Assembly (NCBI GenBank): GCA_036383255.1
Contig: DASVOS010000011.1
Coordinates: 126,007-190,006, forward strand
Reading direction: 5' to 3'
Length of the DNA: 64,000 bases
Source: Gammaproteobacteria bacterium
Lineage (GTDB): Bacteria; Pseudomonadota; Gammaproteobacteria; Natronospirales; REEB76
This document shows positions 46,328-48,559 of the stretch, piece by piece. Below the pieces are notes generated by a model that searched no databases, was not told the DNA's origin, and was given only the letters and a program-made list of their open reading frames with translations. A program made the translations under genes and the position numbers. Numbering within the stretch: position 1 is the first letter of the stretch; every line of letters begins with the position of its first letter.

Positions 46328-46667
46328 GTCTCCTTCGTCTCGTGGTGGCGGGCAGGTGCCATCGGTGGCGCCCTGCCGGACCACCCCTGGTCCGGCGTCC
46401 CTGTCAGGACGCGTACATAACTTGACAATAGTACTGCACCCCATCGAAGACTGCAGCGTCCAGGCCTTTATGGGCTTGCAGAAAGAGCGGCGGGTCCGGT
46501 TTCGGCCCCGCTCCTGGAGCCGCTCCAAAGAGCCTATGGGACGCACAGGCGCATCCTTCCAACCCAGGGCAGGCCGGCATTGCAGCCAAATAGGGCCGGG
46601 GTGGCGACCCATAACCGATTGATTTAATGGCAATTTAAATAAAGCTTAAAGAACGTGACGTATTTAC

Positions 46668-46696
46668 TTTACATAATATCGTGTAGGTGCTAGGAT
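46668..46696 (+). promoter_or_regulatory. Sigma-70 promoter driving the c-di-GMP riboswitch
   Basis: TTTACA (46668-46673) and TAGGAT (46691-46696) are separated by exactly 17 bp in an AT-rich stretch. Transcription would start just at the 5' edge of the riboswitch. Confidence 0.65.
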
Positions 46697-46703
46697 GTAT
46701 CTA

Positions 46704-46796
46704 ACCGATCAAGGCAAACCCGGTGAAAGCCGGGGACGCAAAGTCACCGGCCTACAGGGTGCATCCACCCCAAGGTAGCGGGACCGCCGGATCAGA
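46704..46796 (+). ncRNA. Cyclic di-GMP-I riboswitch (GEMM-I)
   Basis: The conserved GEMM-I core is present in order. First come GGCAAACC, a P2 stem capped by GAAA (CCGG-TGAAAG-CCGG) and GGGACGCAAAG. Then follow CACCGGCCTA, a P3 arm AGGGTG-CATC-CACCCC, and AAGGTAGCGGG before the closing strand. GATC at 46707-46710 can pair with GATC near 46790 to close P1. Aligned by eye with the Vibrio Vc2 aptamer, the ligand-contacting position 20 is G (46713), which is the c-di-GMP form; the cGAMP-preferring variant has A there. No U-tract terminator follows before the ATG at 46862, so control may be translational or Rho-dependent. Confidence 0.93.
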
Positions 46797-46861
46797 GGCC
46801 GCCGCCTGCGCGTCCTCGCCCTGGCCTGCCTTGCGGTCCCTATGTGGGCACGAGGTGGACC

Positions 46862-47743
46862 ATGGGCGACCAGACCGACTCCAAGCAGATCAACTTCCTC
46901 CACGGCACCTGGCGCGCCCTGCTGCACGACCAGACGGAGCCTTTCGAGAAGGACCTGCTCAAGGACTATGTGAGCAGCAACGTGATCGGCCGCCTGCCGC
47001 GCCAGACCACCCTCACCAACGTGATGCACGAGTGCCAAGCCCAGGGCGCATTCCAGGAGAGCTACATCAAGTCCTTCCTGGCGCTGCCCAAGGCCTGGGA
47101 CAAGCTCACCCCCGAGTCGCGCCACACCATCCTGGTCTACGTCCAGAAGTGCGGCCTGCACAAGAATGCCGGCATCCGCCTCAAGCCGCTGGAGGACGAC
47201 GAGGCTGCCCTCACCATCCGCTGGGATACCGCCAATCGACTGTACGCGGCCGCCCGCGACCAGGCCTTCCAGGCCTGCCGGCGCCTCGGCCTCGAGGTGA
47301 CCCAGCCGCGGAGCCGGCCCCGCCCCAACGAGTTCGCCACCCTCGCCCAACTCGGCCAGGAGATCCTGATCAAGCTCTTGCGCGAGCGCGTCAATATCGA
47401 CAAGACTGCCGTCACCATGGCGGTGGGCTACGTCACCCCGGTGGCGAGCGCCAAGCTCGGCTACCACCTGCGCAGCGCCTATGCCGAGTGCCGCGACGCC
47501 CTCTACGCCGCGCTGCTGCACTGGGCGTTCCATCACCCCTCCGAGGTCCTGGGCGGCGGCGAAGTCGGCGCGCGGCTGACCGCGGAACAGGAAGCGGCGC
47601 TGGACCTGCGCGTGCGCGAGCAACTCAAGCCCTTCGAATACCAGTTCGAGGGGCTCTGTGCCGACCTCGAGAACATGTCTTCGGAACCCACGATCTACGA
47701 GAAGGTGCGCCGCTGCTTCCAGGAGGCCGTGGTGCTGCACTGA
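46862..47743 (+). CDS. Unrecognised protein under c-di-GMP riboswitch control
   Basis: A 293-residue, probably cytoplasmic protein with no signal peptide or membrane helix. I do not recognise a family or catalytic motif. Visible traits are a Lys/Asp-rich N-terminus, PESRHTILVYVQKCGLHKNAGIRLKPLEDDEAAL in the middle, and the paired Cys of YAECRD and GLCADLE. The C-terminus is mostly helical and acidic. ATG at 46862 has CGAGGTGGA upstream; GTG at 46844 is the alternative. The riboswitch ends 66 bases before the start. The gene is monocistronic and followed by a terminator. It is therefore a candidate c-di-GMP output protein, for example for surface attachment or motility, but this is inference from regulation alone. 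Confidence 0.85.
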   Translation: MGDQTDSKQINFLHGTWRALLHDQTEPFEKDLLKDYVSSNVIGRLPRQTTLTNVMHECQAQGAFQESYIKSFLALPKAWDKLTPESRHTILVYVQKCGLHKNAGIRLKPLEDDEAALTIRWDTANRLYAAARDQAFQACRRLGLEVTQPRSRPRPNEFATLAQLGQEILIKLLRERVNIDKTAVTMAVGYVTPVASAKLGYHLRSAYAECRDALYAALLHWAFHHPSEVLGGGEVGARLTAEQEAALDLRVREQLKPFEYQFEGLCADLENMSSEPTIYEKVRRCFQEAVVLH

Positions 47744-47794
47744 CGTTCACTGGAGGTGATGGGGGCAGGCCGGGTCAGCGGCCTGCGATACCTG

Positions 47795-47822
47795 AAGCCC
47801 GCCGCGAGGCGGGCTTTTTTAT
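47795..47822 (+). terminator. Rho-independent terminator after the riboswitch-controlled gene
   Basis: AAGCCCGCC-GCGA-GGCGGGCTT followed by TTTTT. Confidence 0.9.
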
Positions 47823-47912
47823 TTCAGCCTGCAGCAGGATGACGGGAATAGATGGCGAAATCCGTCAGTCGTGGACCTTCCCTCACCGGGAAGGTGGCAC
47901 CTGCCAGGAACT

Positions 47913-47935
47913 TGTACTACTATTTTCATAGTACA
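47913..47935. promoter_or_regulatory. 23-bp dyad (TGTACTA-N9-TAGTACA) upstream of a secreted protein gene
   Basis: A perfect 7-bp inverted repeat with a CTATTTTCA centre lies 25 bases before the ATG at 47960. A related dyad with the same TATTTTC centre stands before the TonB-dependent receptor (58985-59004). It is probably an operator for a dimeric regulator. Confidence 0.5.
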
Positions 47936-47959
47936 CACCTGCCTCCATGAGGAACCACC

Positions 47960-48559
47960 ATGCGCATCCGCCAGTCTTGCCTGATCCTGATTCCGCTGCT
48001 CGCCGCCCTGTCCTGCTTCTCCGCCCGGGCAGCAGATCCCGACTCCGAAGCCGATTACGGCACGAGCGTCCTCTACCTCGGCAAGATCGGCGTGACCGGT
48101 CAGGAAGCCATCTTGGGCGCGCTGCAAGACATCAAACTGGCCCTGGCGCAGCCCCTCTCCAATGACCCGAGACTCGCGGACGTGATGGTCTGCCGCCTGG
48201 CGGATGACATCGGCACCCACGCCAAGCAACTCCTGATCTGCGGCACCAACCGCGTGCTCAACCAGAACCGCGCGCTGTTGCAGGCGACCATGAGCTCGTT
48301 CCTCGGCAATGCCAATCCACCCGCGGGTGGCGACGGTCATGGCGGGTCCTCCACCGCCTGCAGCGCCTCCAGCTGTTTTGAAGAGGACGTAGGAATCCTC
48401 AACGAGACCGTCAACAGCCAGTCCCAGCACTACATCAAGCAGCAGGTGAATGGCGCAGCCCTGCGCGCCCTGTTGGCGAAGCTTCCCTATCCCCAGCAGA
48501 TTGCTGTCCCGGCAGCCGCCACGGTGCCGGCACCGACGGCGGTGACGGCACATCTCTGA
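47960..48559 (+). CDS. Exported hypothetical protein
   Basis: A 199-residue protein with a signal peptide (MRIRQSCLILIPLLAALSCFSARA, cleavage near residue 24). A Ser-Cys in the hydrophobic part is not a good lipobox. The mature part contains four or more cysteines (VMVCRLADDIG, LLICGTN, TACSASSCFEED), a Gly-rich spacer (PPAGGDGHGGSS) and a C-terminal Ala/Pro/Thr-rich tail. No domain is recognised. AUG is preceded by GAGGAACC. A striking dyad lies just upstream, and a terminator follows the stop. Disulphide-bonded periplasmic or surface localisation is inferred. Confidence 0.7.
   Translation: MRIRQSCLILIPLLAALSCFSARAADPDSEADYGTSVLYLGKIGVTGQEAILGALQDIKLALAQPLSNDPRLADVMVCRLADDIGTHAKQLLICGTNRVLNQNRALLQATMSSFLGNANPPAGGDGHGGSSTACSASSCFEEDVGILNETVNSQSQHYIKQQVNGAALRALLAKLPYPQQIAVPAAATVPAPTAVTAHL

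Follow-up and report, generated by a model that had tools for sequence, protein, structure and literature searches.

Does the RNA element that precedes a single gene of no recognized family at this locus belong to the riboswitches that respond to c-di-GMP and, if so, how would it act on that gene? The window, namely the whole 64,000-nucleotide stretch of DNA that was analyzed (G000:C11:126007-190006), is taken from a draft genome of 2.59 Mb. In a cmscan search, positions 46704-46792 (+) of the window matched RF03167 (c-di-GMP-I-GGC) with a score of 66.2 bits (gathering score 59), while the score of RF01051 (c-di-GMP-I) over the same positions was 75.9 bits (gathering score 35). Neither model matched in any of 14 control genomes. 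The covariance-model run that the initial annotation had proposed as a check on its assignment of the element to the GEMM-I class thus bore out that assignment, both scores lying well above the cut-offs. Moreover, when 19 of the 21 pairs of the RF03167 structure line were enforced in folding, all 19 proved to be standard pairs in the window aptamer; the other two comprise one standard pair (A46704-U46792) and one non-standard pair, A46742-C46785, located at the base of the second stem. Judged from its sequence, the element is almost certainly an ordinary, canonical c-di-GMP-I riboswitch aptamer.

The ligand would then be c-di-GMP. In the RF03167 alignment, the specificity position of the window aptamer (position 20) is occupied by guanine (AAGGCAAACC), as had been noted earlier, and a guanine at this equivalent position is what we take to be the mark of the c-di-GMP form of the GEMM-I aptamer. 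This guanine, the 75.9 bits obtained with the standard model RF01051 and the 29 GGDEF matches found in the same genome all argue against the aptamer sensing some other ligand, such as cGAMP, a reading considered very improbable. In its favor are the preference of cmscan for the variant model RF03167 and the existence within the GEMM collection of c-AMP-GMP-sensing variants, as described in PMC7266159.

Examination of the region upstream of the aptamer revealed a sigma-70-like promoter at 46668-46696 (+), comprising TTTACA (46668-46673) and TAGGAT (46691-46696) separated by a 17-base spacer, with TG before the second hexamer. This was the only promoter-like site detected on either strand of 46400-47960, where shuffles lead one to expect 0.3, and the aptamer starts just after it, in agreement with the earlier claim that the riboswitch has a promoter of its own. 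Transcription would begin at about position 46703, such that the aptamer would form the extreme 5' end of the RNA. The aptamer is accordingly part of the 5' leader of a sense gene, with the promoter upstream and a coding ORF that begins 69 bases further on, a count covering everything between the Rfam match and the ATG (46793-46861); the 66 bases previously given for this spacer need to be corrected. That the spacer holds no U-tract was, by contrast, correctly stated, since no T-run is found there and a terminator-like site appears only 3' of the gene. The latter, a stem-loop of 10 pairs (7 of them G-C) followed by a T-rich tail, is found at 47794-47817 (+), 50 bases past the stop codon; since shuffles of the region yield about 1.1 sites of this kind, it is weak on its own, yet its placement fits a single-gene unit. 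As read from the sequence, the unit is composed of promoter, aptamer, one gene and terminator.

Several features of the flanking DNA can be added. An ATAGTAC element is common to 46422-46435 and 47914-47934, being palindromic at the latter (GTACTA...TAGTAC). The former site lies upstream of an OmpA-family gene and the latter upstream of the gene at 47960; they could represent an operator flanking the riboswitch unit. The next gene downstream (47960-48559) encodes a protein of 199 residues with a signal peptide-like start and no Pfam or NCBIfam match. Because family matches of the upstream OmpA-family gene are only 27-44% identical, this gene was not used for placing orthologous intergenic regions.

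The ORF controlled by the putative riboswitch runs from an ATG at 46862 to a stop codon ending at 47743 (+; 293 codons) and is preceded by a ribosome-binding site, GAGGTGG, at 46852-46858 (+). Its GC content by codon position (0.67/0.41/0.92) resembles that of neighboring genes and, when six frames were scored against the codon usage of six other window ORFs, this frame gave +0.46, as opposed to -0.31 to -1.69 for the other five. By these measures, the 293-codon ORF is genuinely coding. That it is instead not a real gene, with the element being a stand-alone RNA like the related one found on contig C12 of the same genome (see below), is scarcely credible. Such a view could draw on the failure of every search to find a homolog of the protein, on the presence, in two of the other frames, of long ORFs overlapping this one and on the occurrence of apparently stand-alone GEMM-I RNAs in Natronospirales. 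Against it stand the codon-position GC content and codon scores just given, the well-placed GAGGTGG and the position of the terminator-like site, found only past the ORF. The window element was as such rejected as a stand-alone RNA, given the coding gene downstream and a spacer with neither terminator nor C-rich loop.

The initial annotation had recognized only one downstream gene, encoding 293 residues of no nameable family. Coding statistics upheld this description, as did searches of Pfam, NCBIfam, PHROGs and PADLOC, none of which returned a family match. Likewise, tblastn against 50,697 phage and 72,556 plasmid records gave no match at E 0.01, while pattern scans of genome contigs and viral contigs yielded 25 and 3 stretches, respectively, none of which was confirmed as a relative. 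In whole-genome searches at E 0.001, matches were obtained in one of 95 genomes of relatives and in one of 398 genomes of the phylum, in each case the genome itself. Relaxing the threshold to E 0.1 in a sample of 369 class genomes (overlapping with the other two samples) gave 15 with a match, namely the genome itself plus 14 in which the match was short (E 0.002-0.1). The 14 were taken for chance, the best of them (E 0.0023) spanning a stretch with two stop codons. Two PDB sequence matches (E 1 and 1.4) were likewise regarded as chance, and no paralog was found in the same genome at E 1. As the 11 other genomes of the family all belong to another genus, the term orphan means only that the gene has no relatives outside its own genus. 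Prediction of the protein structure, another of the checks initially proposed, proved unsuccessful, with single-sequence AlphaFold returning a mostly helical model with a mean pLDDT of 41, unusable for fold comparison. With no homolog found in anything searched, genomic context says nothing on the function of the protein. It is possible that the orphan protein is a new, lineage-specific c-di-GMP output; a role in motility, attachment or matrix formation, the kinds of target that the initial annotation had named as usual for GEMM-I, would be conjecture. A riboswitch shows directly which gene a signal acts on, here linking c-di-GMP to a protein without relatives, and a knock-out or reporter could give that protein a role beyond the reach of homology searches.

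Folding of the leader predicted a hairpin at 46816-46869 (+), in which 46827-46834 pairs with 46851-46858, i.e., the whole ribosome-binding site, and in which the start codon is part of the outer stem. The 58 bases at 46815-46872, boundaries set after the fold was seen, give -32.2 kcal/mol (z -3.2), a value as low as that of only 0.4% of 500 shuffles; wider or other stretches are weak (46793-46880: z -1.7, 5.4% of shuffles; 46793-46861: z +0.5). Bases -14 to +3 were unpaired with a mean probability of 0.18 in the orphan gene, as compared to 0.41-0.66 at five other starts in the window (GDH, acdh, ORF45, next and Sel1), with the OmpA and TPR rows (0.50 and 0.37 unpaired) being left out since their coordinates correspond to CCC and CAT, which are not start codons.

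The strand that would cover the ribosome-binding site is also complementary to the aptamer. The segment 46827-46837 (+) can form 11 pairs with the aptamer 5' strand (46704-46707 and 46710-46716), with p 0.018 in 1000 shuffles for a complementarity tested after it had appeared in a fold; presumably, the matched stretch includes the specificity G. In addition, 46833-46840 (+) is the exact complement of the aptamer 3' strand at 46780-46787 (GGGACCGC/GCGGTCCC), a match of 8 bases with p 0.06-0.09 by shuffles. The best fold with this second pairing enforced (-75.4 kcal/mol) is to be compared with that obtained with the aptamer enforced (-75.5 kcal/mol), and leaves the ribosome-binding site partly free (0.05-0.68 unpaired per base). 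As the transcript is extended, holding the aptamer together costs about 5 kcal/mol at first, then 11-13 kcal/mol after synthesis of 46836-46854 and 5 kcal/mol again from the point at which the hairpin can form. If the aptamer is enforced, pairing of the ribosome-binding site reaches 0.99 directly upon its synthesis and stays there for all lengths examined from 46860; with the aptamer not enforced, it is 0.61 paired at 46860 and 0.99 from 46872 on. Because equilibrium hides the site in both states, the switch would need to act during transcription, i.e., kinetically, or be absent.

The aptamer class, the promoter match, the coding gene, the predicted hairpin and the mutually exclusive complementarities were each demonstrated by calculation. 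A mechanism that would join them is as follows. An RNA made from its own promoter and carrying the aptamer at its 5' end would control translation of the one orphan gene. At low c-di-GMP levels, 46827-46837 would pair back onto the aptamer 5' strand and 46833-46840 might pair with the 3' strand, with the ribosome-binding site thereby being kept free during transcription. Bound c-di-GMP would instead hold both aptamer strands, such that 46827-46834 would close the hairpin at 46816-46869 over the site and the start codon, and translation would stop. It is plausible that a single 8-base segment thus chooses between the ribosome-binding site and the ligand-binding strand of the aptamer. The translational level and the OFF direction are what we infer from the predicted pairings, and the chain as a whole, namely an OFF riboswitch responding to c-di-GMP at the level of translation of the orphan gene, could equally well hold or fail. 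As compared to the riboswitches that RF01051 and RF03167 describe, the window element shares the sequence and structure of the aptamer, with both gathering scores exceeded, and its place ahead of a single gene, in the 5' leader; it differs in that the downstream gene is without family and in that the platform would be a predicted hairpin over the ribosome-binding site in place of a terminator.

The same calculations bear on two other ways in which the leader might work. Since the ribosome-binding site is already hidden in the unconstrained minimum-energy fold, the default could be OFF, and the unliganded, hairpin-closed leader would then be somehow opened by the ligand. Such an ON switch is unlikely, given that no aptamer-dependent pairing that frees the ribosome-binding site was found and that the site remains 0.99 paired at all lengths tested from 46860 when the aptamer is enforced. 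Control could also be exerted over transcript length, with the ligand deciding whether Rho loads onto the spacer, whose 69 bases are C-rich and without an intrinsic terminator; most of the spacer is predicted to be base-paired, however, and this possibility is considered quite unlikely. The initial annotation had held a translational or Rho-dependent platform to be likely. Of this, the absence of an intrinsic terminator from the spacer stands, and the predicted hairpin would favor the translational level, as in the OFF switch proposed above.

To what extent is pairing between aptamer and downstream sequence a general trait? GEMM-I matches number 18 in the order, that of the window included, and are distributed over 11 of 19 genomes. 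By a DNA pattern, three of these records were assigned to Natronospira sp., a Natronospiraceae bacterium and an unclassified gammaproteobacterium; since NCBI lists Natronospira under Natronospirales, the latter is taken here to be the order. When the second stem and 3' strand of each aptamer were compared to the downstream 120 bases at the window locus and the 17 related loci, p was 0.085 for the window, while all seven loci of an apparently stand-alone type (below) showed a duplex at p <=0.01. Nothing was detected at G001, G012, G015:C11, G016:C69b or G016:C63 and, with several of the 18 loci showing nothing, such pairing is not universal in the order. At two loci from the window's family (L029 and L037, in G007 and G005), the 3' strand of the GEMM-I aptamer reads AGGATGG, the complement of which, CCATCCT, occurs downstream and overlaps TCCTCC; the latter is in turn the complement of a GGAGGA that precedes a short ORF. 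The logic is that proposed for the window, although by shuffles the pairing is not significant (p 0.17-0.26).

The seven loci, including G000:C12:48900-48987 in the same genome as the window (the sibling L006:4901-5083, with relatives L023, L024, L025, L026, L033 and L034), have one architecture in common, in which a promoter-like pair is followed by the GEMM-I aptamer, a hairpin, a C-rich single strand and a terminator. At the promoter-like pairs, the best agreement was with 7 to 10 of 12 positions, in a scan of our own with no shuffle baseline. The C runs (4-8 C, runs within the terminator stem excluded) are 0.75-1.00 unpaired. The 5' arm of the terminator consists of the second stem and 3' strand of the aptamer itself, and in all seven siblings, the minimum-energy fold is the terminator state rather than the aptamer. 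When the 20 pairs of the terminator were compared across the seven loci (140 cells), 97.1% of the cells held standard pairs, as opposed to 43-53% in slid controls. The pairs covary, with 10 cells changed on both sides, a number reached by none of 500 shuffles. A model of this architecture, built from the seven loci, gave 100.6-141.1 bits in seven of the 19 genomes of the order; the next best scores were 27.8 (G001) and 26.0 bits (G007). Across 369 genomes of the class, scores above 33 bits were obtained only in the three sampled genomes of the sibling group. In the genome considered here, the model matched only at C12 and not at the window element. Both share the aptamer class and a downstream segment that competes with aptamer strands, yet the sibling terminator recruits the second stem of the aptamer and is accompanied by exposed C-rich runs, whereas the window leader has neither of these, contains no terminator in its spacer and runs into a coding gene.

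The siblings, found in three families of the order, thus apparently represent stand-alone small RNAs of 174-187 nt controlled by c-di-GMP, with low levels of the ligand being a situation that should favor the terminated RNA. Exposed C-rich stretches like theirs reportedly serve the trans-acting RNA sX13 of Xanthomonas, and by this analogy a trans-acting role can be proposed. Specifically, c-di-GMP would set the termination and hence accumulation of an RNA kept in Natronospirales and able to base-pair, in trans, with ribosome-binding sites rich in G, an idea offered tentatively, as a serious possibility rather than a probability. If true, this would link two layers of regulation, with c-di-GMP directly controlling a small RNA that acts in trans. 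As such, the sibling family is a more novel lead than the window riboswitch; in the literature searched, no paper was found that deals with both Natronospira and riboswitches, nor one that describes the sibling element. The rival view is that each RNA controls a neighboring gene, in sense or antisense. Genes for c-type cytochromes, with CxxCHG motifs, are found upstream of all seven siblings, and in five, a convergent ORF follows (DUF2721 in two, unnamed in three); in G017, the contig ends downstream of the sibling, while at C12, a sense gene for an LCM-family methyltransferase begins about 50 bases past the U-tract. Set beside the antisense-acting c-di-GMP riboswitches described in PMC9943018, the siblings are similar in having a convergent gene downstream at five of the seven loci; they differ in that this convergent gene varies by family while the RNA is kept, and in that the next gene at C12 is in sense. 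The closest stand-alone case is merRNA of Bdellovibrio bacteriovorus (PMC3627812), which is also a c-di-GMP riboswitch in a non-coding RNA with no evident cis target, and was proposed to serve as a c-di-GMP store and not as a trans regulator. At 445 nt and known only from Bdellovibrio (PMC3627812), merRNA is distinct from the siblings, with their shorter length, their presence in three families and their aptamer-overlapping terminator.

Finally, two tandem GEMM-I aptamers were noted on the minus strand in G016 (L032:7694-7948), before a gene for a secreted-looking protein with a poly-glycine stretch, and a third, single GEMM-I aptamer precedes a related protein at L035.
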